NCBI GenBank assembly: GCA_947172415.1
Contig: OX359197.1
Coordinates: forward strand, 5,147,673-5,211,672
Source of the DNA: Chondrosia reniformis
Taxonomy: Eukaryota; Porifera; Demospongiae; Chondrillida; Chondrillidae
Direction: 5' to 3'
DNA length: 64,000 nucleotides
Shown here: in pieces, positions 31,255 through 48,552 of the stretch
Layout of the letters: the number at the start of each line of letters is the position of its first letter
Position numbering within the stretch: position 1 is the stretch's first letter
Notes under the pieces: generated by a model
Database searches by the model: none
What the model was told of the DNA's origin: nothing
What the model saw: only the letters and a program-made list of their open reading frames with translations
Made by a program: the position numbers and the translations under genes

Positions 31255-31490
31255 CCTTTTGTGCATGGTATTCTACATAATATACTGATATTATATACGT
31301 ATAATTAGCCACTATGCTATATAAATAACCTTACAATATGTTGCTAAATTTGGCAACTACATCATTTAAGATGTAGGAAGAGTCACAACACTATATACGT
31401 ATATACATATATATATATACAAATATTTCAAGTATTTGTATACTTGTATCATGTTTGCAAGACTTCATACCATTAATTTGAAGCAGTAAC

Positions 31491-32521
31491 ATGGGAAACT
31501 ACTTTGCCGCTGTTTCTTCATCCTTTGATACTGGAACATATGATCAATACGAGTGGTCACTGATGATCATCTCCTGGATAGTGTTGGTACCAGTTCTATT
31601 TCTCAGTGTCTTCCTGATCATCACTCTGATTGGACCAGGTCAGCTACCAAAGTCTATTAGAATTGTCCTCATCAACATCCTGGTCGCAGTCTTTGCCTTT
31701 GCTGTGATAGGATTGGTCACGTCCACACTCTTCTTTACAAAGTATGACTATCTTCGTGAGATTGGTTTAGCAAAGGTTGATATTCATGTTAAGAATCAGT
31801 CAATTGAATCTTTTACAGCTTGTGTTAATACTTCATACAGGATTATTTTCAGCTATGATGTTTTGGTGTTATTTGGCTATCCCACTATGGTGTCTGTTAC
31901 TTTAGTCTTCATGGCATTCTATGGCATCCTGGTGTACATCTACATAAGATATATGTGTTCTACAAAATTGATATTTTCCCTGTTATCTTCAGTTGCATTT
32001 GGGTGTGGATAATTGTCATTCTAGTCAATGTCCCCACAATCAGTCTATACTTCTCAGTTCCAGTGCTTGCTCCATATGTTGCTCTGTTGATACCTTTGAC
32101 CTTAGCTATACCTGTATACATTATTTCCATTTTCCTACCAATTCGAGCTCTTCATTTCATTAACAAGTCTGTCAGTAATGTAAGAAATGTCAGCTATGGA
32201 AAGGCAATAGCTAAACTGGCACTATTTCAACTAATCAACAATACTATATCATTAAGTGGAAACATTCTAGTGTTTATTCCCGTTATTCAGTATCAAGCAA
32301 TATCTGCTCAATTTAATGATGAATTACGAATTGAATTGCAAAGCATTAAGGGTTTGGGTAACTCTGTGATAGCATTCATAATTGGTGCCATACTTGATGT
32401 TGCGTCGTTACTAGTAACACCAATCCTCTTCATTATTTTCTTGAAACAAGTGAGAGACAATGCTAAGAAGATCCGATGTACACGTGGTCGTGAGAAGAAT
32501 TTTAATCGGCAAAGTACTTAG
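31491..32521 (+). pseudogene. Intronless 7TM protein with one frameshift
   Basis: Two overlapping frames join to give one seven-helix protein of about 340 aa. The first (31491-32012, MGNYFAAVSSSFD...) carries TM1 (WSLMIISWIVLVPVLFLSVF), TM2 (IRIVLINILVAVFAFAVIGL) and TM3 (YPTMVSVTLVFMAFYGILVY). The second frame takes over within ~31950-31975 and supplies TM4 (VIFSCIWVWIIVILVNVP), TM5, TM6 and TM7 (ending PILFIIFLKQV), then a basic tail (IRCTRGREKNF). TM4 is cut by the shift, so the first frame alone would stop with three helices. No GT-AG intron of reasonable size explains the jump. The layout is GPCR-like, but I see no DRY and no clear NPxxY, so the class is unknown. It lies between a multi-TM gene and an adhesion GPCR. 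Recent pseudogene or a one-base sequence error are both possible. Confidence 0.6.
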
Positions 32522-33093: not shown

Positions 33094-36000
33094 ATGAATA
33101 TATTTATCATGGGGAGGACGATAATAGTAATCTTGCCAGTTTTACTAATTCTTAGTAACTACTCTGTAGCCGTTCCGTACGAGGATTTTATTGGCTATCC
33201 ATTTGGAGAGGAACACGGAGATCAACTCTTTCCTCCAATTTTAGATCATTCAATCCCCATCCTAGTACCGAATGATTCGCTACCATTTGGATTTCCCTTC
33301 TTCGGTGAAAAGTATCCATATATCATTGTTAGTTCTATATATCCGAACTTGACCACTCATATTATTATATATATATACGTATATAGCAGTTGTTTTTTGA
33401 TTAATTTTTTGGAATGACACTTGTTTGTGTTGTAATGATCAGGTAGACTATTATAATGGGTTGCTATATAGTATTATGAATGGTTAGTTATACTTTAAAA
33501 AAGTAATAGGTAGAGTCTAGCTACATACGCAAGTGTTGAAATATCTATTTACACTCTATACAGCTCTAGACCATATTCTTCGCTTTGATAAAATTAGTCA
33601 TGCATGCAATAAATCTTTTTTCCTCTTTATTCCTATAGATGAATGTGCATGGAGCTCTGTCATTCCATCGTGAGCCTATTTCATTTACCACCTACACACC
33701 TAGATCTTTTCCTCTCAATGCAAGTAGTCTTATGTGGCCATGGGCAAGAATGATAGCTCCATATTGGTCAGATGTTGACATTACAGTGCAACCTGGCAGC
33801 ATAACTTATCGAATTTTGTATCCATCAAACAGCAGTGGCCTACTGTCATGTATTAGCCAAATGTCTGGTTTAAAGAATTTTAGAGCTAACTGGGGTCTCA
33901 TTGTAACTTGGAATCGTGTTGGATACTATCAGGAGCACAATGATAAAGTAATGTTGTTTTAATCCACACCTCCTAATAATTCAACCTTTTATAAAAAGAC
34001 ATGAAAATTCTAATACACCATTTTCCTACATGCTATACCTATTCTGTAAAAACGTCTAAAGGGGAGCTGAAGAGAGCTTTGGATGAAGATACAGGAGTCT
34101 CAGGTTCTTCCTTCTTTTCCTTTCTTTCATCTTCTTCTCCACTGGGTCAGACAGCTTGATCTTCTGTGAATCCATATATAATTCATCTAAATCTGCTTAT
34201 AATTACAGTTTGGATGTATATAATACAGTGCAAGTTACAAATACCATCTAAAAATCTCTAAAAATGTGATCTTTAGTAAACAGCCAAATAATCATTCTTT
34301 CATTCTTCTTTTAAAATATGTGACAACATTGTAATTTAATAATTAAGGGTGGATGTAGTGTAATATATTTAAAGCATGGCTTCTTTTTTATTATATATAC
34401 ATGTATACAGTACTATACAATTCTACTATAATTGCAGAATTGGACTTTTACTATGGATTACATTGTGTGTATGTATATACGTACAAGAATAGGCAATCTA
34501 GTGATTATATATATTACATATTTGCACATTGTGTATAGCTTAATACATTTCAAGCAGTTTTAGTAACAGATGGAATCAAATCGGTAACTATATTCAACTA
34601 TGCTGATGATGGTATAAACTGGATTATGACAGACACTGGTGGAGTTTTAGTGGGCTATAATGCGGGAGACAATATTAGATATTTAGAAGTTAATGGATCC
34701 CTCACAGAAAGGATTGCTTTCATTGACGAAATTCCTGGAAATACAGGTGAAATTGGAAAATGGATTTTCAGATTAAATCAAGAGTTTGTGAATATTGGTC
34801 AGTATTCATCAGTCGTAATTGAGAATTGTTGCCTTTATGTATGCATGTGGATAATTGTCTCACTTAGAGGGGCTTTATATATACAACCTAAATTCAGTGT
34901 TTAATAGTTTCTATATAAACAGTGTCCTTTGCAAATGAAGTGCTTTAAATGCATAAGCCCATTAGGCCAATGCCTTCTTATCTTTACACTATATATATGT
35001 ACGTACAGTTGGTGTCACCTCCATGATTTATATATGTTATAATGTGCATTGTTGTTTTTAGGGGCTGCCACAGGCAGCCCCTTATATTGTTTTCATTTGC
35101 CGATTACGTTGTATGGCTTCATGTTACGGAAAGATATATATATATATATATCTATATATATAATACGGGTTGATACGCAACTATTATAACACTTTATTTA
35201 TACGTCGCTATATAATTAATACAGGTTCATATATACGCAACTATTATAATACTTTATAATACTTAATTTATACATCAATACATCGTTTTGCAAATGGCGG
35301 CGTTCAGGAAGCTTTAGTTAACGAAGCTTTTCTGTCGCTATTTATAGTGTTCAGGACACTTAAGCGTCCTCAATCGTTAGTATTACGAATATATATATTA
35401 AATGCCAACGATACGGCCAAGTAGTTCGAGTTGATTCGGGGGGCGGCAGCCCCACGAGTTTTTAGGGGCTGCCTGCGGCAGCCCCTTATATTGTTTTCAT
35501 TTGCCGATTACGTTGTACGGCTTCATGTTACGGAAAGATATATATATAGATATATATATATATATCTATATATATAATACGGGTTCATACGCAACTGTTA
35601 TAACACTTTATTTATACGTCGATATATATTTAATACAGGTTCATATATACGCAACTATTATAATACTTTATAATACTTAATTTATACATCAATACATCGT
35701 TTTGCAAATGGCGGCGTTCAGGAAGCTTTAGTTAACGAAGCTTTTCTGTCGCTATTTATAGTGTTCAGGACACTTAAGCGTCCTCAATCGTTAGTATTAC
35801 GAATATATATATTAAATGCCAACGATACGGCCAAGTAGTTCGAGTTGATTCGGGGGGCGGCAGCCCCACGAGTTTTTAAACTCGAAATACTTGTTTATCT
35901 TCCATAATCCTATATCTATATTAACTCATGCTGTACATAAGACTGCTTATATATATATAATAGTCATTTATTTTATTTAAGAAGTTGTCACAATATAAGT

Positions 36001-39000
36001 CTCTTCTTTGTGTTAATGCTTCGGAAAAGCCATGGCCTAAATGGTCTTGGTATTTCCAAACATTTTCTTTGTACATTACTGTCTCTTGTATATACACAGA
36101 TGTTTCAATTAGTGGAAATGATATAGTAATTTCTCCTGAGTCCTTCCAATACACCTGCATTGTGAACAGCTCTTCAGCTGTGGTTTTCTCTTGGTACTTT
36201 GAGGGAATTGAAGTTAGCCAATTATCAGGAATATTCTACACAGTTATTACAACAGAGAGCACTATTCAGGAAAGTGTTTTAACTATTAATGAAACAAAAC
36301 CTTCCTTTGGAGGTACTTATGAGTGTAGAGCTCACAATACTTTAGGGATTGGTAATGACGCAAGAATCCTCACTGTACTTGGTAAGTGAGGTTTGCGTAT
36401 GTTGATTTTTAAAAGGCAGACCACATTGGTAGTGCTATATGCATACATAGAATGCTATGTTTGATTTAATTTTCTCTTTGCATATAGATAAACCAGACCC
36501 GCCTGAGAATGTGACTATAACTGGTTCAACTGACAGAGATCAGTTTATCACCTGGGATAATGGATTTAATGGAAACTTGGAGATTATAGGCTATGACATT
36601 TATATCAACTCATCACGAAATCCAGATCTTTCACCAATAGATCTAGCAGGGGTGAAGGGAGAGGCAGCTGTCACACTTAATGGCACAACAGCTGTTATAT
36701 CTAATCTGATCCCGTTTGTAGAGTATTCTTATGCTGTTACAATTTGCAATTTACTTGGTTGTAGTAAAATGTCTGACATATCTAACTCAGTTTGGACTGA
36801 CCCTGCAAGTGAGAATACTAATATGCAGTATGTAGAGTAAAGGTACTTGGATTTGGAGTGTTTTGGTTTGATTAGTCAATATTCATTAAGATACATTTAA
36901 ACATTTGGAATCCAAGTGGAGTGCATATGTACGTATATACTGTGATTAACTGATTATCTACCACTAAAATATCACATGAAACCTATTAGAAACTCTTTGA
37001 ACTGCTATAGAAGTTTCAAAAGGTATATATGAAAGTATGTATAAACTTGGAAAGGGGGCTTGGCTGTTAAAAACTTGAAACCCCTCTATTATTAAACCTG
37101 AGATTTGATCCTATTTACGTATGTACGTATATTGCACTAAACTTAATATACGTACATATGACAGAACTCTAATTATGAAATTAATACAGATCAAATTTAG
37201 GTGTCTTATTATCTTTTTGATTGTTCTGTTATTCTACAGTACACCTGTTTGTCTTGTAAAATTTATTAATAACCACTGTGTATATATACAGTATATATCC
37301 CTAGGTATTATGTATAATACATGTGCTGGACTGGATTCTAATCAGCTTCTGTATGTACGTATATTGTATGATCATATATATAGTTCCTGATCAAGAACCA
37401 ACCAACTGCATTGCCACTGTAATGTCACCCACTACAATTGAAGTCACATGGAAAGCACCTGACCCACCTAATGGGATACTCAGGGACTACAGAATAGTGT
37501 TTAAACCAATAACAGCTGTTGCAGACTACAATCCAATGGATTTTGAGGGGATAACGAACATGACCACGGGAAATACTACTACTGAATATTCCATTACTGG
37601 ACTCCAGGAAGCTGTGAGATATGATTTTATGATATCTGCCATTAACCAGGTTGGTGAAGGACCTCTTACAACAACTGACTGCTCAGCTGAAACTGATGAA
37701 TCATGTGAGATTGCGCCTAGAAGTACTATTCATTTTTATAGATATTTCCATAGACTATTTTTAAAGAAGGTTTATCCTTCAACATTTTAAGTGTCTAAAG
37801 TTACATGTATCTCTGGATCAAATTGTTCAACAGAAACATAAGACAATAAATGGCATAATACAATATGTCTTCTAATATATACTCGATAATGAACCATCTC
37901 AAAGATAAGTTTGATGTATTTAGGAGAATTTTCCAACTTACTCTCTTACAGTACGTATATTTACAATGTACGCATATACGTATCTATATTTTTAAATGCT
38001 TCATATATTTGAATATATATAATAATATATATGTACTGTGTGTTATATAGACTACGTATGCATTATTGCTATAGATCCTAAAGCACCTATGAATGTATCT
38101 GTATATTCTCCTGGTCCCACCTCCTTGATGGCAACTTGGGATCATCCCCTTCCACAAGACAGAAATGGCATAATCACTGACTATTTGATAAGTATAAAGA
38201 TCACTGATGATTCTGAAGACATGTTTTTAATAAATTCAAATAGTAATGAAACATCCTATACTATAAAGGGTCTTAGAGAGTCTACTGAATATATTGTGTC
38301 AATTGCTGCTGTAACTAGTGTGGGAATTGGTGTTGAAAGTAATGACGTAATCCACAAAACCTTAAATGACAGTAAGTATAAGAGATCTCAGTCTTGCCTG
38401 TATACGTATGCATACGTATATTACCATTTAAGTAATAGTTTGATCGAAATAGCCTTCCTTGTGTTTAAAATTCCTGAATACATCGTATGTGTATCTATAT
38501 TACACATCCTGTTGCTAATGAAGACCTTCATGGTCGAAACATTCATTGTTGCTGATGCTCATATGAAATCCACTGATCTTATGTATTAAAATAATACAGT
38601 ATCATAACTACTGTATAATTATAATTGTCACAGATATAGATGTAAACTGTCCCAGTGAGGAAGATGCTCTCTGGGGGTTCCAGTGGGAACAGACCGCACC
38701 TAACGTGACAGTAATAGAGAAATGTGATGAAAATGGACAACTGTATTCATCTAGTGGTATGTGTATTATTTTTAGATGTGACACTATTCTTAAAATTATC
38801 ATTTTCTGAATCACATTTTCAGGAATAGTCACACGAAAATGTAACTCAGAAGGTGTCTGGCTAATGGTAAATACCAGTCAGTGTCAGAGCAGTTCTTTGG
38901 CAGACGTTGAAGAAGAAGTATGTATGATCATACGTACACAGAAGAAGTTCTAATTATATATAAAACTTAATATTGTATAACCTTAGTTATTTTATAATAT

Positions 39001-42000
39001 ATATCCCTCGATCTACAGGCCAATGAAATCTTTACAAATCAAAACTCTGGGGAACCTGTGTCCAAAACTGTAGCTGAGAAATTGAATAACTTGACTGTAA
39101 CCCTACAAATGATAACTGATTTACAAAGTGAGGAAAACAAGCCAATCTTCCCTAGAGATCTTGAAGCAATTAACACATTTATAGCAATGACCAGCAGGTA
39201 AGGTTTACATGTAGAAATGTAAATGTAAATTCGTACATACTCACAATCACATGCATGTAATTCCTTCTATATAATTCAGTTTGGCTGAAGACAATGGCCT
39301 CTTTAATACATCGTATAATGAAGAGGTTAGTAAACTCTGTATGATTCACAGGGTCACTGATGTAGGGTGGAATTCCCAGAAACAGCTGTCTGGCCCAATG
39401 AAGAAGGAGAAAATTCATGTTCTCCAGTGAATTTTGTGATTTTTTTGAAATTTAACCAAAAGTGTATATGTATATGCATTCAATGTACTATAACCATATA
39501 CCTACGTACGTATGTTTTAAGTTGCTGAATCCATCATCATATACAGTACTCATTTATTCTTTATATAGACACTTGTTGAGATTGTAAACAATGTCTTGGA
39601 TACCTCACAGGAGGTGGGATGGTCAATGCTCACTGAAGTATGTAATATATATGTATATACGTATGTAATGATAAGCAAAAGCACAGGCCAAGTGCAATTA
39701 ACTCCCCTTATTCATACATACATATTATGTAATGTGCAGAATATGTTACTAATGGGTCTTATATACCTAGTAATGACTGTACTATAGTATGTGAATGTGT
39801 TGTTATAATGTGATTAAAGGCTTCTGATCAAATTAGTATTTTTATACTATACGAATATAGGTATATACACAAATAAATGTGTACATGTATACATATACTT
39901 ATACTATACATATTCTAGCTATATACGTATGCTGCATAAACATATATATTAGTATATTTGTAATCCATAATATTATACATATGTGCATATATTCATTTAG
40001 ACTAACAGCACTATGGGCTCACCAGAATTATTGCAAAATATAGAAAGAATATCTTCTGCCCTGAGTAACAATTTGCAAGCTGCTGGTGTATCAGAAAAAG
40101 TTATTGCATTTAGCAATATTAGTAGGTTATATTTACTATAATTGCATCATAGATCAGTCTTATGCATCAACTGTACATGTACCGCTATAGTACAATATCT
40201 TAAGTATTAATTTAATTCTTCCTTTTTAACAAAAGTTTTGAGTAGTATGCTGGTGGATTCAACAAATAGTCAAATCAGCCCAGATGACTTTGTAGCTGAA
40301 AACTCATCCATACCTTTTGAGGACATACCTGAGATTGAATTACCCCTAACCAAACTAGTTTCTGGCGACGCAGGAATTCCCATTCCTATTTCACTTTCAT
40401 TAATGAAAAATCTAGACATGTTTTTGCCAAGGAGATTTCAAAATGGAAGGTAATGTAGGTTGGGAAAGAAAGTGTGTTTAGGTCACTCAGGACAACTTCA
40501 TAGATCATAGACAAGTAATTTCACCTTCAAAGTTGTAATATCTCCACTTACTACCATTAAGCAGCCATGTCCCAATTATTAGATGGTGTGGTTGGTGGTG
40601 AAGCCACATTGTAATATGGCTTCTAGCTCTCAATGCATCATCATTACAGCTACATAGTCACTACCACTATGTAGCGTATATACAGTACGTATATAAATGG
40701 GGTCAACTGCATAACCCCTATAATATTATACTTACGTAATATTATTCTGCCAGGTACACTTTGGTGGTGAGTTTTGGTGACTGCCTTCAACTTATAATGA
40801 TGCATCACAAGTGAAACAGATCATCTTTGACCATCTACAAGGATATAGTTTTGTAGCAACATTTACTCCCCTGGTCCTGCTTTACTCATAGCAGTAGCTT
40901 TCACACAAATTACTGTGCATTGATTATAATGTTTCATTTCCTATAGCATGTTACCCACAGCCCAGACGGTGCCTGGGACTATAGTGACATCTGTTCAAGT
41001 TGCTTCAGCATACACTGTTGACAGTGATGATGAAAAATTGGTTACTATTAACTTTCCAATTACTGAGGACAATGTAAGCAGAAAATATACCATTTATATA
41101 GAACAAAATGTCTCAGCAAAGGTTTCATGGATCTATACATTCATTGTTAGAAAAATGTTGAATTGTCAGGCCACACTTGTGCATTTTGGAAGTTTGATGA
41201 CAATTCCCTTGGAGGATGGTCAACTATTGGACTGAGCACTCAGAAAGAAAAAAATGGAATGGTCACTTGTAGTTCAACCCATTTGACGAGCTTTACTGTT
41301 CTTGTTAATGTAGCAGGAGTGGTAAGATTCCTTATATGTAGTAGGTACATTGTCAATTATCAAATTCTTTAACTGTATGTGTGGAATATATTATACAGTA
41401 TATATGTACATACCCACTGATGCAATAACATTTATATACATACATATTTTACTTGTCTTGTTTACCAATTCCACTCCTACCTGTAGAAAAATTCTAAAGA
41501 TGTAGCTCTAGCATTCTCTATTCTTTCCTACATTGGGTGTGCCATCTCCATGATAGCCCTTATTCTTACAATACTATTTCTGGTGATTTGTCAAAGGTAC
41601 TGTAAAATGACTTTTAAACCATTATACAAACAAATTTGTATTCAGCTAAATTTAAATATGTACGTACATATGTACGTACGTATATACAGTATACATATAC
41701 ACAATTTAAGTTTGATTTCTTGCCCAATTGTCATGGTAACATTTATGAAATAGTTAATATCCATGATTGTAATTACGTATAAAATATACACATTCAGTAA
41801 TTACATATACGTATTTATGAATTTCATTGATTATTATTCATAAATTTTACTTTGTTTACATAACAGGAAGGTCCTAATATCAAAAGTAAACAACTTTGTA
41901 CTCCTAAACTTATCCATTGCTCTCCTTTTGGGCCTCACTGTCTTCTGTGCTGGTATTCAAACTGCAAAATCATCCTATGTAAGTATAGGGACTACATTTA

Positions 42001-45000
42001 GTTATCTAAAGCACATTTTCATATACAGTATATACCATTCTATGCATTAAAAGGCCTATAGAAAAGCTTTGGATGAGGATAAATACAAGAGTCTTCTCCA
42101 CTACATACACACATACATGTATGTATAGTATATTAAAAGGAATAGCACAAGATCTAGGCTGTATATGGGTGATACATGCAGTGTGAAATATCCTATTTTA
42201 AGATAAGATTTGGGCCCTTAATTGGCCAGGCATAATATTTATTTCAGTAAATTTACTTACAGAACATACACATACGTATGCTCCATGTTGATGTCAATTA
42301 AACATTTTTAGAAGAAGTTCTGATAATTTACTCAAACTGATACCTTTGTACATACATTTTGACCTAATATCTAACTGTTTTATATACTTAGGGAGGCTGC
42401 ACCTTTGTTGGAGTGTTGCTGCACTACCTCTTCTTAGCTGCCTTTAGTTGGATGTTGTGTGAAGGAGTACTCATCTATAATTTACTTGTGAAAGTGTTTG
42501 GTGTCAACGACAGGAAATGGATCTATATTTATTCTGCACTTGGCTGGGGTAAGTCTTTTAGTTGTCAATAAACGCTTCCACTTCTGTCCTACATACAGTA
42601 TATGTAGAATTGATATAACACCAATCCTTGATAATTATTTTGTTGTAAATTTGACCTACAATTTATTCCGCATCTATTAAACACATATTCACTGGACCAA
42701 TAGTTTGTGTAGCAATTATGTATGCATCTTGTTTGAATACATAATTATTATTACGTAGATCTGCATTATGTTGTTATTGTGTATGTATGTAACATTGCAT
42801 GATTTTTATATTATGTATATATTTGATAAACTTTATCAATCCATGTTATAGGATTACCTTTGCCAGCTGTAATTGTGACTGCAGCTGCCAGATATGACAA
42901 TATTCATATCAGAGAATCTCTTAATAAAGAGAGCCCCCTTTACCATGAAATTAGAGCGTAAGCCTTATATGTATATACCTCACTATATTAGAAGTGTAAT
43001 TATATAGGAATAGAAAAATGGAGTAGATTCTGAGTGTATGGTCACATAAGTAAAATAATTCTATATAATGATTACCTTCAGCTTCTAATTTCTATGTGCT
43101 TTTCAATTATACATACATATGTATGTATATACATATACGTATGTACAGTAAATCTCGTTAAACCTGGATAATTATTTAGATGTATTTGTTTGTTACAATT
43201 ATGAGTTGAATTAATGAGATTTCATTGAACATATTTTTGTAGTTAATATTAAGCTGTGAAGGCATCTATTGATCTTCACTATGACATAATACTGACCCTA
43301 AATACGTAGCATATTCATTATATGTATGTATAAAGTAAATAAAAAACATTTACAAAAATGATGTTAGAAGTAGAAATGGCAGTGTTCACTAATACATCTG
43401 CAAAAAGTATCGAAACAAGACACTGATTATATGATAAGGCTAATCATACAGAAGTTGCATATATACTGAAATTTAAGTAACTTAACCATACACTTCTGTG
43501 TTTGGGCGCACTAACCTTAAGTAGGAATGGTGCGCCCAAACACAGAAGTGTATGGTTAAGTTACTTAAATTTCAGTATATATGCAACTTCTGTATGATTA
43601 GCCTTATCATATAATCAGTGTCTTGTTTCGATACTTTTTGCAGATGTATTAGTGAACACTGCCATTTCTACTTCTAACATCATTTTTGTAAATGTTTTTT
43701 ATTTACCCTTTTTTCCTCTTAATATTACTTGTTTTAAATTGATTTGAAAGTTTTCTTGGCGAAGATCTCAAAATAACGTCTTAGACAAGAGAAATATGCC
43801 GAAAACCATGATCTCTTAATTAAAAAATGGCGTCCGAGAAGACCACAATTTTCGCTCTTCACAATTAACATGCTTATTGTAGAGCGCATTCAGATTTAGG
43901 GCTGTCTATTCCCTAGTTCCGAAATATTTATGACGATTTATAACTAGTACGTGCCCGCACAAGTTCGCATATTAGCGCTAGTCTATTCAATAAAAGAAGA
44001 AGAAGAAGAAGAAAAAATGAATTTTGGAAGTGGGTCTATTCCTAGTTAGCCGCTTTTTGAACGCTATAGAGCGTGTAGAGCGTCGAAACATGTTTTGGCA
44101 TTTAGGAAAGCGTGCATTAATCGCTGCAAATAACCGAATATAACCGAAAATCGTTTCGTTGGCGATTTATTAGGTGTTGATTGATAATACATTGGATAGG
44201 GCGGCCATTTTTTTTCCGGCCATTCCTACTTAGAGAGTACTACCGTACTCTCTGATACTGTAGGTGCTGGTTATCAAGTGAGAATGGAGTCATTTTTGCC
44301 TTTGTTGGTCCAATTATAGGAATAATGATAGTAAGTGTATGTACGTATATAGGCATTATAGCAATAATGATAGTAAGTGTATGTATGTTTTACCATTTGC
44401 AAGTCCACTGCAAACTAAATGACTGCATACATATATATATTTTTGTCTGGAGCCTTGTCAATCACTCTTGTATTGTGTATAGGTTAATACAGTGTTCCTA
44501 TGCATGGCAATGGTTAGTCTGTGGAAGAACAAGTTTGGTAAGAGCATGTCAGCAATGAGCAGTCCTGAATCAAAGACTAACCTAAAAGCTGGATGGTATG
44601 ATTTCATGTGAATCTCTTTTTATCATTATTCATCTTTCTACATGCCTACCTACCTACCTACCTTCCGACTTACTTATCTGCCTGCCAGCCAGCCTGCCTG
44701 CTTGCCTACCTATTTACATATGTACTTGTGTACTGTACCATATACATAAGTGCATGTAAAATAATATCTTTGTAATTTCTGTATATGTTTAAAGGCAACT
44801 TGTTAAAGCTACCATTATTCTGATGCCTCTGATGGGAATTACGTGGATCATTGGCCTCTTTGCAGTCAGCCCACATCCAGCTACCTTTGCTTTCTCTATT
44901 GCATTCATCATACTCAACTCACTACAAGTATGTGATAGGTATCAAGTATTGATCTCCACCAAATCCAATAATTTGGCCTACTTATATACATGCATGTGCA

Positions 45001-45909
45001 TATATACATACCTAATTACAGGTGTTATATGCACTTGTGTACTATGTATACAGATTTTATACCTTTCATTTGTGTGTTTATGATATAATTTGTTTATCAA
45101 TTAAATGCATACAAATTAGGGACTCTTCATTTTCCTGCTCCACGTTGTGCGTCATGACAAAGTTGGAGGAAGAATAGCTGGTTTTGTGAAAAAGAGAAAA
45201 GTAAAGCTATCAAGAGTAAGTAAATTACTATGTCTGTGTACTTCATCCTATTATGTATATTGTTTTTTATCCTATAGGATATATCTTCTTCGAAAGTCAC
45301 TACAACCGTTAAAAGTAAATTATGTACATGCACTAAACATATATACTGAGGATGAATGAGCATTCATAGACCCAAAATATGAAATGAGTTATATACAGAC
45401 AGTGCCAAGCTTAAGGCTACTGATTTCCCCATTAATGTCTGGGTCCCATATGTACAATATATAGCTGCTTTTTGTGCTCAATGCTAGACCTACTTCTTGC
45501 TTAATTTTGAGTTACAATTACATGACTAATCTAACACACCATTTTCAACATGCTTTATAAAAAGCCCTATATAGGGAACTAAGCCTATATAATTAGAGCT
45601 TTGGATGAGGATACAAGAGTTTTTTTTTTTAAATAAAGTATACATGTTTTACAAATTGTAGGCGTTGAACTTAATGAATTGCAGTGGAATTATAGCGGTG
45701 TGTATTTGAAGCAAAACCCTGCTTACGTTTCTACATGTAACAAAGAGCTATCAAGTTCTGTAGCTGAAGACCAAAGTGAAAGTGATAGATTGCAATGGAA
45801 TTACAACAGGATGTACATGCAGACCAACCGCACTGTTAGCGGTAACAAGAGACCTTCAGACTCTTCCATCATTGAAGAGCCAAGTAATGGGGATCCCCCT
45901 TCAAAATAA
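33094..45909 (+). CDS. Adhesion GPCR: NIDO-Ig-FN3x3-HormR-like-GAIN/GPS-7TM
   Basis: Exons: 33094-33327, 33639-33947, 34539-34797, 36100-36381, 36488-36808, 37384-37704, 38075-38371, 38634-38756, 38823-38917, 39019-39197, 39280-39325, 39569-39637, 40001-40121, 40236-40449, 40947-41073, 41151-41321, 41487-41596, 41867-41978, 42392-42548, 42852-42957, 44264-44330, 44483-44595, 44795-44927, 45120-45215, 45278-45314, 45662-45909. Phases match throughout: 1,448 aa. Order: signal peptide; NIDO domain (~50-267; NYADDGINWIMTDTGG, YNAGDNIRYLEVNGS); one Ig domain (~268-360; YECRAHN); three FN3 domains, one per exon; a Cys-containing HormR-like piece (~675-745); a GAIN region ending in a GPS (CAFWKFDD...THLTSF; predicted cleavage after Leu1044); seven helices; a ~115-aa tail. 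The family self-cleaves at the GPS and signals through a tethered agonist. Ligand unknown. An alternative start is the ATG at 33109. Confidence 0.87.
34002..34180 (+). mobile_element. Family S dispersed element
   Basis: Copy with both halves: TACACCATTTTCCTACATGC and CTATTCTGTAAAAA at one end, then AGAGCTTTGGATGAAGATAC, then TTCTTCTCCACTGGGTCAGA and TTGATCTTCTGTGAATCC. It lies in the intron between the two NIDO exons of the adhesion GPCR. A nearly collinear copy is at 53504-53720. Confidence 0.7.
35061..35878. repeat. Two tandem ~405-bp units with palindromic ends
   Basis: Unit 1 is 35061-35464 and unit 2 is 35465-35878; they are almost identical. Each starts with a palindrome (GGGGCTGCC...GGCAGCCCC) and ends with GGCGGCAGCCCCACGAGTTT; each contains an expanded TATATA tract. 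The shared ends could be terminal repeats of a small mobile element present as a tandem dimer. It lies in the GPCR intron between the NIDO and Ig exons. Confidence 0.85.
39339..39422 (-). mobile_element. Family S element, 3' part, inverted
   Basis: Reverse complement of the tail seen at 53620-53715: GATTCACAGGGTCACTGATG, then GTGGAATTCCCAGAAACAGC and GTCTGGCCCAATGAAGAAGG. It begins 14 bp after the donor of the small exon 39280-39325. Confidence 0.65.
39670..39710. mobile_element. Family F remnant (terminal end only)
   Basis: Carries GATAAGCAAAAGCACAGGCC followed by AAGTGCAATTAACTCCCC, the terminal motif of the fold-back MITE family, without the arms. It lies in the intron after GPCR exon 39569-39637. 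Confidence 0.55.
42045..42110 (+). mobile_element. Family S fragment
   Basis: GCCTATAGAAAAGCTTTGGA then TGAGGATA and AAGAGTCTTCTCCA, the core words of the dispersed family. In a GPCR intron between the TM2 and TM3 exons. Confidence 0.55.
43336..43705. repeat. Perfect palindrome: 176-bp arms, 18-bp loop
   Basis: The left arm 43336-43511 is, base for base as I read it, the reverse complement of the right arm 43530-43705; the loop is 43512-43529. It lies inside the adhesion GPCR intron between exons 42852-42957 and 44264-44330. Diverged relatives of one arm occur at 17188-17345 and 26540-26725, so this is the youngest member of a fold-back element family. Transcribed, it would form a ~176-bp duplex hairpin. 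Confidence 0.92.
43518..44232. mobile_element. ~715-bp segment with 13-bp inverted ends
   Basis: TAAGTAGGAATGG (43518-43530) is matched in inverse by CCATTCCTACTTA (44220-44232). The segment holds the right palindrome arm plus ~510 bp of unique, less AT-rich DNA. The left end is in the palindrome loop; the right end is only 31 bp upstream of the exon at 44264. No transposase is visible. It could be a nested non-autonomous element. Inverted ends alone are modest evidence. Confidence 0.45.
44640..44712. repeat. CCTA/CTGC microsatellite-like tract
   Basis: Tetranucleotide-type tract (CTACCTACCTACCTACCTTC, then GCCTGCCAGCCAGCCTGCCTG-like text) in a GPCR intron between exons 44483-44595 and 44795-44927. 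Confidence 0.8.
45527..45625 (+). mobile_element. Family S dispersed element
   Basis: TAATCTAACACACCATTTTC, then AGGGAACTAAGCCTATATAA and TAGAGCTTTGGATGAGGATA. It sits in the last intron of the adhesion GPCR and ends ~35 bp before the final acceptor (45661). Confidence 0.65.
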
Positions 45910-46231
45910 CAGCTATAATATGTTTATAGCCACTGAGACAGGATGTTCTAACAGTTCTTACTTTGACCGTGTATACATGCATAAGAGGAATCAAGACATT
46001 AAACTTATGATTAAATGATTATATAATATAATGTGTTTACAATTTGTATATTGAGCTTTAAAAGTATTATATATATATAGAGAATGCATGCATATGGTGA
46101 AAAATTCCCTCTTATACATTCTACCGGTACGTACCGGCAATTTAAAAGCTTCGAACACGATGCAAAGCAGTTAAGAGAAGGTGTGGTCATATAAAGTGTG
46201 TGTACATAGAATATATAGGGACGGTTTCAAA
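45910..46231. other. Short spacer GPCR / GALK2
   Basis: 322 bp between the GPCR stop and the GALK2 start, AT-rich; must hold both the GPCR 3' UTR and the GALK2 promoter. No convincing AATAAA or promoter motif found. Confidence 0.5.
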
Positions 46232-48552
46232 ATGGCGGACAAGCTAACGCCTACGTTTACTGAACTTGAAGCATTTAGCCTTGGAAATGATGCAAACAAG
46301 AAGCGATATGACACTTTAATAACAAATTTTGAGGAACAATTCAAACTCCAACCTCACTATGTGGTGAGAGCCCCTGGTAGGGTTAATTTGATCGGAGAGC
46401 ATATAGACTATTGTGGTTACGGCGTGCTACCGATGGCACTATCGCAAGATGTGGCAATGGCGCTAGCAATCGATGAAGATTCTTCGAATATGGTGCTTGT
46501 TAACACGGAAGCTTCCTACCAGCCTAATGAAGTCACTGTTAATCTGAATGATTTCTCGATTGAAGGCACCCAATGGTACGAGTATATCTTGTGTGGTATC
46601 AAGGGAGTGATGGAAGAGAAGGGACTAGAGAAATCCAAGGGAGTGAAGATACTGTTGAATGGTAATATTCCACCCAGTGCAGGTGAGAATACATTAGCAT
46701 TTTTAATTCCTCCATGTTATAGGGTGTATGTAGCACCATAGTAGAGATACTACAGTAGCTGTGCTATATGCATCAGTTCATATTATATATATATATGAAA
46801 AATCTAATATACCATTTTCCTACATGCTATATGCCTATTCTGTAAAAAGAGCCTATAGGGGAACTAAACCTAAAGAGAGCTTTAGATGATAACTATAGAC
46901 AAAAGTAGGACATATTACGTAAGTCTACCCTTAGGTCTTCTAGTAGTAACATTTCTTTGGAGGTGGGGTAACACAATATGGGGTAACACAAGACAGTCCT
47001 TAAGCATACTAGCTACTTTTTGCTTATACTTGATTCTAACTAGAGGCTGCCGGGATAGGAAGGTTTTAAAGGTTGATTTTAGCTTAAAGTATTTGTAACC
47101 CTGCTTAATAAGCCTATTGCATAACTGCAAACTTTTAGCCTGAAAACTGGAGAAGTCACTACATATTCTGGAATATCTAATTAGTTGTGAAATAAAGACG
47201 CCATATAATTTTAATGTCCACTTGAACCTAGGGACTCATTCACTGATTTGCTATATATCCAATAAAAGTAAAACTATTCCTGGTACTATAGAGGTGTAGT
47301 AAATTTATTATTGTATGTATAAGTGAATATATTACATACTTTATAATTTACAAGAAATTGCTAATAGATATAGTCATCAAATTTAACATAATCATAATAC
47401 GTATATAATATAGTCTTGGTTTGGATATTGTTACATTACGTAACTGCACATAAATAATCTAACACACCATATTTCTTACATGCTACATCTACTTTTAGAA
47501 TAAAGGATTATAGGGAACTAAACCTAGTGAGAGCTTTGGATGAGGATACAAGAGTGTTCTCCATCTGCTTATCTTCTTCTCCATGTACAGGTCTGTCAAG
47601 CTCCTCGGCACTGGTGTGCTGTGCTGCACTGATGACTACTGTTGTGAATGGGCTGAACATCTCAAAGTCAAAGTTGGCAGACATCTGTGCCAAATGTGAG
47701 CGCTACATTGGTACACAGGGTGGGGGGATGGACCAAGCTATCTCCTTTCTGGCTGAGGAGGGACAGGCAAAGTACATCCAGTTTGATCCCCTTCGCACCA
47801 CAAATGTCCCCCTGCCCCTTGGAGCCACATTTGTGGTTGCAAACACTTTGAAACAAGCCAATAAGGCTGCAACTGCCCACTTCAATGAGAGGGTTGTGGA
47901 GTGTCGCTTGGCAGCCAAAGTTATCATAAAGGCAAAGGGAAAAGATTGGAGTGAATGCAGAACCTTGGGACAAGCTCAGAATATTCTTGAATGCCAATTG
48001 GAAGATATGGATCAAGTTGTCAAGGATGTCCTTCATGAGGCTGCGTACTCCAAGTCTGAACTGTGTGAGCTCTTCCAGATCTCTGAGGAGGAGCTGCTTG
48101 AAATGTGCATGAGCAAGAATACTCACCACATGCAGACCTTCAAGTTGTACCAGCGAGCATTGCATGTGTACCAGGAGGCACTGAATGTTATCCAGTTCCA
48201 TCGTGCAGCTACTTCTGGAGGCAGTCCAGAAGCAGTTCTGAGGGAGCTGGGTAGACTGATGAATGCCAGTCATAAGAGCTGCAACACCCTGTACGAGTGT
48301 AGTTCGGCTGAGCTGAACCAGATGGTGGAGGTCTGTCTGGAGAAGGGTGCCTATGGCTCTCGCATGACGGGGGCAGGATGGGGTGGATGCACAGTGTCCC
48401 TGATACCACAGTCTTCAGTTGAGCTCTTTGTAAAGGACCTGAAGGAATGCAGCTACTACACTGGAGATCCTGATAGAAAAGCGCAAGTTGACAGCGCTGT
48501 CTTTGCCAGCCCACCTGGTGGTGGCGTGGCCATCCTTACATTCTCCCTTTAG
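46232..48552 (+). CDS. GALK2: N-acetylgalactosamine kinase (GHMP family)
   Basis: Two exons, 46232-46682 and 47591-48552, giving 470 aa (human GALK2 is ~458). GALK2 phosphorylates GalNAc, and less well galactose, at the anomeric position with ATP, in the cytosol. All three GHMP motifs are present: the galactokinase signature PGRVNLIGEHIDYCGYGVLP (~res 50), the ATP-binding PPSAGLSSSSALV spanning the splice junction, and C-terminal MTGAGWGGCTVSLIP. GTQGGGMDQAISFLAEEG supplies the catalytic Asp region. Text such as CAKCERYIGTQGGGMDQAIS and KLYQRALHVYQEAL is closer to GALK2 than GALK1 as I know them. I start at the ATG in AAAATGGCGGAC; an in-frame ATG 17 codons upstream is less likely. The intron holds two family-S elements, one ending just before the acceptor. 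Confidence 0.95.
46797..46890 (+). mobile_element. Family S dispersed element
   Basis: AAATCTAATATACCATTTTC, CTATTCTGTAAAAAGAGCCT and AGAGAGCTTTAGATGAT in order. In the GALK2 intron. Confidence 0.65.
47456..47590 (+). mobile_element. Family S element abutting GALK2 acceptor
   Basis: TAATCTAACACACCATATTT, TATAGGGAACTAAACCTAGT and GAGCTTTGGATGAGGATACA, then TCTTCTTCTCCATGTACAG. The element runs into the polypyrimidine tract and the AG of the GALK2 acceptor at 47589-47590, so part of the 3' splice site appears to come from the element. Confidence 0.6.

Follow-up and report, generated by a model that had tools for sequence, protein, structure and literature searches.

Does one gene of the demosponge Chondrosia reniformis join a NIDO domain to an adhesion G protein–coupled receptor (GPCR), and if so, how was that head acquired? 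The question is raised by a locus on contig C9 (bases 5147673–5211672; this whole 64,000-base stretch is called the window, and positions are window positions unless a contig is named). Genome-wide searches covered the 117,379,552-base assembly of 15 contigs. A first-pass annotation, made from the letters alone, had proposed a 26-exon, 1,448-amino acid (aa) model in codon phase and an adhesion GPCR with the order NIDO, Ig, three FN3, HormR, GAIN/GPS, and seven-transmembrane (7TM) region. We consider it highly probable that the locus is one gene encoding a tethered-agonist adhesion GPCR with a shuffled NIDO head.

Gene Model and Domain Architecture

Independent splicing by hand reproduced both the length and the ends of the proposed model: 26 exons on the forward strand at 33094–45909 give 4,347 nucleotides (nt) and 1,448 aa with a single terminal stop, and all 25 introns are GT–AG and in phase. 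A free-stopping ab initio exon chain begun at 33094 was run under four settings: three gave an end at 45909, and the fourth, from which penalties were absent, continued to 46100. It recovered 19 of the 26 hand-spliced exons exactly in two settings and 15 in the other two. A stricter run also ended at 45909, but its 13 exons left out NIDO exon 2 and a large share of the 7TM region. Splicing by composition alone was tried and rejected, as it missed exons at strict settings and left one gene versus two undecided.

Pfam matches on the spliced protein, all above curated cut-offs, fall in the order that had been proposed: NIDO, Ig, three fn3, HRM, GAIN, GPS, and 7tm_2. The NIDO match (aa 77–261; 1.1e-36) is strong at 127 bits against a cut-off of 25, whereas HRM (aa 679–738; 4e-6) is barely above its own, at 27.6 bits against 26.2. 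Ig_3 (aa 277–347; 4.3e-7), three fn3 stretches (8.7e-37), and GPS (aa 1008–1050; 3.5e-10) were also identified, together with GAIN (aa 777–899; 3.8e-9), which covers positions 4–125 of the 210-position profile, and 7tm_2 (aa 1065–1326; 5.5e-47), which covers the whole profile. Comparison with the PDB gave 102 matches, the best 60 of which were inspected; aa 822–1338 align to the GAIN and 7TM regions of ADGRL3 (phmmer, 7wy5, 6.4e-44), and the ADGRD1 7TM aligned at 1.8e-42. The NIDO region had no PDB match at E up to 1. The first-pass annotation had allowed for a 747–1056 region lacking a GAIN fold; the Pfam GAIN match and the ADGRL3 alignment place a GAIN domain there at the sequence level. With 7tm_2, a GAIN domain whose GPS lies directly before the helices, and the H-x-S/T cleavage motif (His1043-Leu-Thr1045), the predicted protein is by its sequence a class B2 adhesion GPCR.

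The protein starts with a signal peptide–like stretch, and its ectodomain contains 21 N-x-S/T sites. The tail is tyrosine rich (window 45662–45906), with a repeated LQWNYxxxYxxxN and an NPAY that we take to resemble the NPxY adaptor motif. We considered the tail as a shared module and rejected the idea, since its only match in the genome was to itself.

Origin of the NIDO Head

A tandem array on the same chromosome, 0.5 Mb from the window gene (C9:4537453–4647374; L021–L032), contains four NIDO receptor genes and one decayed copy. The 7tm_2 match lies 11–14 kb downstream of NIDO in each of the four, and the fifth NIDO (C9:4564860) has in-frame stops and no linked 7tm_2. An exon chain of the first array copy, begun at the signal peptide and allowed to end anywhere, gave 37 exons and 3,138 aa ending at the 7TM stop, and Pfam assigned to this model NIDO, 14 fn3, Ig (five I-set stretches), EGF, GPS, and 7tm_2.

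A phylogenetic tree of NIDO domains has 21 rows, drawn from 22 of the genome's 37 NIDO loci; the decayed array copy was left out. The array NIDOs group with a NIDO at C7:1447k (support 100/97). For the window NIDO, the nearest of the 21 rows are those at C3:1406k (64% identity) and C11:6253k. A clade uniting the window and array NIDOs was rejected (46 log units, approximately unbiased [AU] test p 5e-5), so that two or more separate captures of NIDO by adhesion GPCRs are probable, a conclusion that the NIDO tree supports well and with which the helices are consistent without proving it. A clade of the window, C3:1406k, and C11:6253k NIDOs was not rejected (p 0.44), in a part that is unresolved in the free tree. 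The C3:1406k gene region encodes a VWD domain (1.8e-17) and, by eye, EGF-like stretches, with no linked 7tm_2. An AMOP domain was considered for this gene and rejected: Pfam gave the stretch no family, and two weak AMOP matches lie elsewhere in the genome.

The closest 7TM paralogue of the window receptor, at C2:9626–9631k, is 73% identical; identities are 53–57% for six compared relatives, 31% for the array, and 23–27% for eight intronless receptors. The exon encoding TM3–TM4 matches 30 other loci at 58–78% and the array at 33–34%, and at none of the 30 was a linked NIDO found within 25 kb. The Ig and three fn3 domains are encoded by exons 4 to 7, each a phase 1-1 module, and among 13 NIDO exons examined, 7 have a listed phase-1 exit donor and 6, including that of the window, have none above threshold; the phase 1-1 modules and the seven phase-1 donors suit an origin by exon shuffling.

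The ratio of nonsynonymous to synonymous substitution (dN/dS) is 0.22 for NIDO compared with C3:1406k; compared with the C2 paralogue it is 0.24 in the GPS and 0.07 in the 7TM region, the latter at a dS of 2.7, near saturation. These values point to constraint on all three parts of the window receptor. The array NIDOs gave dN/dS of 0.46–1.28 in six pairs and therefore change fast; recognition of changing partners by the array NIDOs is possible. Elsewhere in the genome, receptor arrays at C8:4710665–4758008 and C12:7225873–7244398 have 7tm_2 within a single long open frame (707–766 aa) and are apparently intronless, with a stop in one C12 copy.

Loss of the Second GPS Disulfide

In the window receptor the GPS has the sequence CAFW...IGLST...TCSSTHLTSF, with Gly-Leu in place of Gly-Cys and CSS in place of CxC; both cysteines (Gly-Cys S12.50 and that of CxC) of the human-type second disulfide are absent, and Leu1027 and Ser1041 stand in their positions. 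The first-pass annotation had noted neither this absence nor the further NIDO receptors on the chromosome. The Gly-Cys cysteine forms the bridge called second, which according to sections of PMC13062082 every human adhesion GPCR has in its GAIN domain. The genome has 92 GPS matches, and 89 were scored, with GPCR and any polycystin-like genes counted together; L114 and L147 were unscored, and C1:6112843 lay outside the set. The second-bridge cysteines are both present at 39 of the 89 loci, both absent at 50, and never present singly (Fisher 1e-19); by distinct sequences, 30 have both and 37 neither. This both-or-neither pattern supports pairing of the Gly-Cys cysteine with the last GPS cysteine, which we take to be its partner. 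No mention of disulfide pairing was found in PMC11697300. The other strand of L114 and L147 shows Gly-Cys and CxC, with HAT in place of HL[T/S]. A separate GPS pattern search returned 13 strings, two of which (L004 and L034) were judged not to be GPS; each of the remaining 11 has two cysteines.

Among the loci without the second bridge, H-x-S/T is kept in 50 of 50 and the CxF aromatic in 37 of the 38 that have the first cysteine in view, and the array GPS keeps all four cysteines. Paired loss with cleavage features retained, alongside a four-cysteine array, argues that the loss is an old trait common to the window receptor's own clade and not decay. In the same sections of PMC13062082, the final four strands are tied together by the bridges, and release of the tethered agonist requires these strands to unfold; HXS/T alone is insufficient for cleavage, the CxF aromatic orients the catalytic histidine, and an HLT-type motif together with the aromatic is needed for efficient cleavage. 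The window GPS retains both HLT and the CxF aromatic. Loss of one bridge may ease agonist release, and equally could weaken folding or cleavage.

Proposed Mechanism

The receptor would comprise a signal peptide, NIDO, Ig, three fn3, HRM, GAIN with GPS, seven helices, and a tyrosine-rich tail, its NIDO head having probably been gained by exon shuffling, separately from the array NIDO heads on the same chromosome. By analogy with studied adhesion GPCRs, from which we infer cleavage, ligand, force, and G-protein coupling, the GAIN domain would cut itself at His-Leu|Thr (aa 1043–1045; Leu1044|Thr1045), and the cleaved parts would remain joined. The NIDO-Ig-fn3 arm might bind an extracellular partner in the matrix, in a mucus-like layer, or on a cell surface; a pull, or partner binding itself, would then release a tethered agonist starting TSFTVL, which would activate the helices and G-protein signalling. 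Matrix binding and tension sensing are thus putative roles. A broader proposal, to which we give little credence, is that NIDO adhesion GPCRs are repeatedly invented sponge matrix or mucus sensors and that the window receptor is one in a large clade whose paired disulfide loss would lower the force of agonist release and so tune the trigger.

Alternative Explanations

Several observations weigh against a single receptor gene with a separately captured head. The one-gene model is read from genome sequence alone, so that transcription as a single unit is something we infer; composition is undecided, the one-minus-two score with a free split allowed varying among the 25 introns from −4.9 to +7.8; and the exon 3 donor, which joins NIDO to Ig, is the weakest junction, below the donor-matrix listing threshold. 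A simple hydrophobicity scan has no TM4 peak, though Pfam spans the full 7tm_2 profile, and the missing disulfide could impair cleavage. The NIDO tree behind the two captures has 21 rows from the 37 loci. In the 7TM tree the array copy falls outside the group of the window receptor, yet a union of window and array has p 0.138, and because this clade is not rejected, the two captures rest on the NIDO tree. Since a NIDO locus lies ~32 kb upstream of the C2 paralogue on the same strand, that paralogue may carry NIDO too; Calx-beta, Ig, and HRM matches upstream of its HRM perhaps belong to another gene. Within the array, Pfam at 0.01 lists neither HRM nor GAIN in the first copy model, and the array HRM exon alone falls below the cut-off (22.9 bits against 26.2).

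The locus might be two adjacent genes wrongly joined, a NIDO-Ig-fn3 protein (secreted or membrane bound) ending before ~38600 and then an HRM-GAIN-7TM receptor, an arrangement that we regard as quite improbable. The composition scores allow such a split, and the weak exon 3 donor opens a 1.3-kb intron containing a 300-nt repeat copied at 99%; 32 of the 37 NIDO loci, moreover, lie away from 7tm_2. The score is +1.3 at intron 3, but at intron 7, where a split would be most relevant, two genes score 4.3 worse (+4.3), and no signal peptide–like start was seen by eye before the HRM exon. The four array copies repeat the arrangement, NIDO coming first and 7tm_2 following 11–14 kb downstream. Genome-wide, a same-strand 7tm_2 follows within 25 kb at 5 of the 37 NIDO loci, against 0.26 expected under random placement (P 6e-6); these five are the window gene and the four-copy array, and linkage remains above chance with the array counted as one event (P = 0.024). 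In our view this linkage supports one gene better than composition does.

Granting a single gene, its product could work mainly without self-cleavage, with a GAIN domain that is uncut or unstable and a tethered agonist that acts uncleaved or not at all. This would fit the absence of both second-bridge cysteines from the window GPS, given that, in sections of PMC13062082, no GAIN domain of a human adhesion GPCR lacks that bridge and HXS/T alone is not enough, and also the loss of LAT-1 surface expression on changing a conserved, though different, GPS cysteine (PMC3776922, in part). We nevertheless think it unlikely, given the retention of H-x-S/T (50 of 50) and the CxF aromatic (37 of 38) in bridge-less GPS loci, for which a role in cleavage or as agonist would account. 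The NIDO head could likewise serve self or microbe recognition of an immune type and not matrix adhesion, as might be suspected from the fast-changing array NIDOs (dN/dS 0.46 to 1.28, six pairs), from an adhesion GPCR of Aplysina aerophoba up-regulated after microbial patterns (PMC6208332, in part), and from the SRCR-bearing adhesion GPCRs of Amphimedon (Krishnan 2014, PMC4302439). The window NIDO, however, shows constraint (dN/dS 0.22 against C3:1406k), and we find an immune role doubtful for the receptor, which we continue to read as a self-cleaving, tethered-agonist adhesion GPCR.

Comparison with Known Proteins

ADGRL3 and ADGRD1, the nearest solved relatives, share with the window receptor the HRM-GAIN-GPS-7TM core, the HLT motif, and a tethered agonist–like stretch; the window receptor differs from them in its NIDO-Ig-fn3x3 arm and in the absence of the second GPS disulfide. 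Latrophilins are marked by lectin and olfactomedin domains and ADGRD1 by a pentraxin domain, none of which is listed in the Pfam result at E 0.1. MUC4, SUSD2, and the tectorins are NIDO proteins with VWD. The gene at C3:1406k is of this NIDO-VWD type and has the nearest NIDO in the tree (64% identity), but it has VWD and EGF-like parts where the window receptor has 7tm_2, with no 7tm_2 nearby.

Nidogen is marked by G2F and by its own domain order, and the NIDO domain is the sole feature that it shares with the window receptor. G2F is absent from the Pfam result for the window protein, and a genome search for nidogen G2F, run without a positive control, found none. Part of PMC10280926 points out that NIDO is not confined to nidogen. 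The first-pass annotation had spoken of a nidogen-type NIDO: the domain itself is borne out (1.1e-36), but kinship with nidogen is not, as the nearest NIDO gene has VWD and the protein has no G2F, and by these sequences "nidogen-type" is a domain name only.

The first-pass annotation had also held that vertebrate adhesion GPCRs do not pair NIDO with this domain set. Adhesion GPCRs of Amphimedon queenslandica include fn3, Ig, EGF, HRM, and SRCR among their domains (Krishnan 2014, PMC4302439); NIDO appears neither in that text nor in the domain list of its Figure 4 legend, which is a selection. The literature searches, which did not extend to figures, supplements, or domain databases, brought up no account of an adhesion GPCR that carries NIDO. 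The two terms co-occur, once each, in PMC6100730 and PMC7116175, which by their titles concern cat oocyte proteomics and olfactory glia, and "nidogen" co-occurs with "adhesion GPCR" in PMC11260871, PMC5980231, and PMC7390928. Wide domain shuffling in adhesion GPCRs is described in the part of PMC12716839 seen, where NIDO is unmentioned, and NIDO is not named in the searched part of PMC13197933. Ig, fn3, and HRM are already published in sponge adhesion GPCRs, and the new element is therefore NIDO and not the whole set.

Features of the Locus

Table 1. Exons and encoded parts of the NIDO adhesion GPCR gene (window positions)
Feature	Position	Strand	Basis
Exon 1: start codon, signal peptide (hydrophobic aa 3–27), NIDO region begins	33094..33327	+	Hand splicing
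Exon 2: NIDO first half	33639..33947	+	Pfam NIDO 7.4e-16 on open frame; spliced protein
Exon 3: NIDO second half; phase 1 exit, weak donor G|GTCAGT	34539..34797	+	Pfam NIDO 1.4e-15
Exon 4: Ig domain, phase 1-1	36100..36381	+	Ig_3 2.1e-8
Exon 5: fn3 no. 1, phase 1-1	36488..36808	+	fn3 3.8e-7
Exon 6: fn3 no. 2, phase 1-1	37384..37704	+	fn3 1.1e-13
Exon 7: fn3 no. 3, phase 1-1; alternative in-frame acceptor possible 24 nt upstream	38075..38371	+	fn3 3.3e-16
Exons 8–9 (38634–38756, 38823–38917): HRM/HormR	38634..38917	+	HRM 4e-6, spliced protein
Exons 10–15 (39019–39197, 39280–39325, 39569–39637, 40001–40121, 40236–40449, 40947–41073): GAIN	39019..41073	+	GAIN 3.8e-9, aa 777–899; ADGRL3 alignment
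Exon 16: GPS; Cys1009, Phe1011, His1043-Leu1044-Thr1045; Leu1027 and Ser1041 at second-disulfide positions	41151..41321	+	GPS 3.5e-10
Exons 17–24 (41487–41596, 41867–41978, 42392–42548, 42852–42957, 44264–44330, 44483–44595, 44795–44927, 45120–45215): seven-helix region	41487..45215	+	7tm_2 5.5e-47; PDB relatives
Exons 25–26 (45278–45314, 45662–45909): cytoplasmic tail with NPAY, stop codon	45278..45909	+	Hand splicing

Two introns contain repeats. The 99% identical copies of the 300-nt direct repeat in intron 3 lie at 35136–35435 and 35550–35849, and intron 20 holds a perfect, MITE-like (miniature inverted-repeat transposable element) 177-nt inverted repeat with an 18-nt loop (43335–43511 and 43530–43706); a stretch similar to the latter was found near the C2 paralogue. 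Directly 5′ of the gene, overlapping open frames at 31482–32521 have the appearance of a multi-helix membrane protein, with no Pfam family above cut-off and no NCBIfam match. A galactokinase-like gene begins directly 3′ (46175–46741; NCBIfam 4.6e-27, a partial match below the whole-protein cut-off).

Significance for Adhesion GPCR Evolution

The paired loss of the second disulfide at 50 of the 89 scored GPS loci provides a natural experiment on the bond that, in sections of PMC13062082, every human adhesion GPCR has in its GAIN domain. Head swapping is regarded as a way for adhesion GPCRs to acquire new senses. In this one sponge genome the same head was probably captured twice, independently, and donor-like genes remain, so that the step of head capture can be followed.

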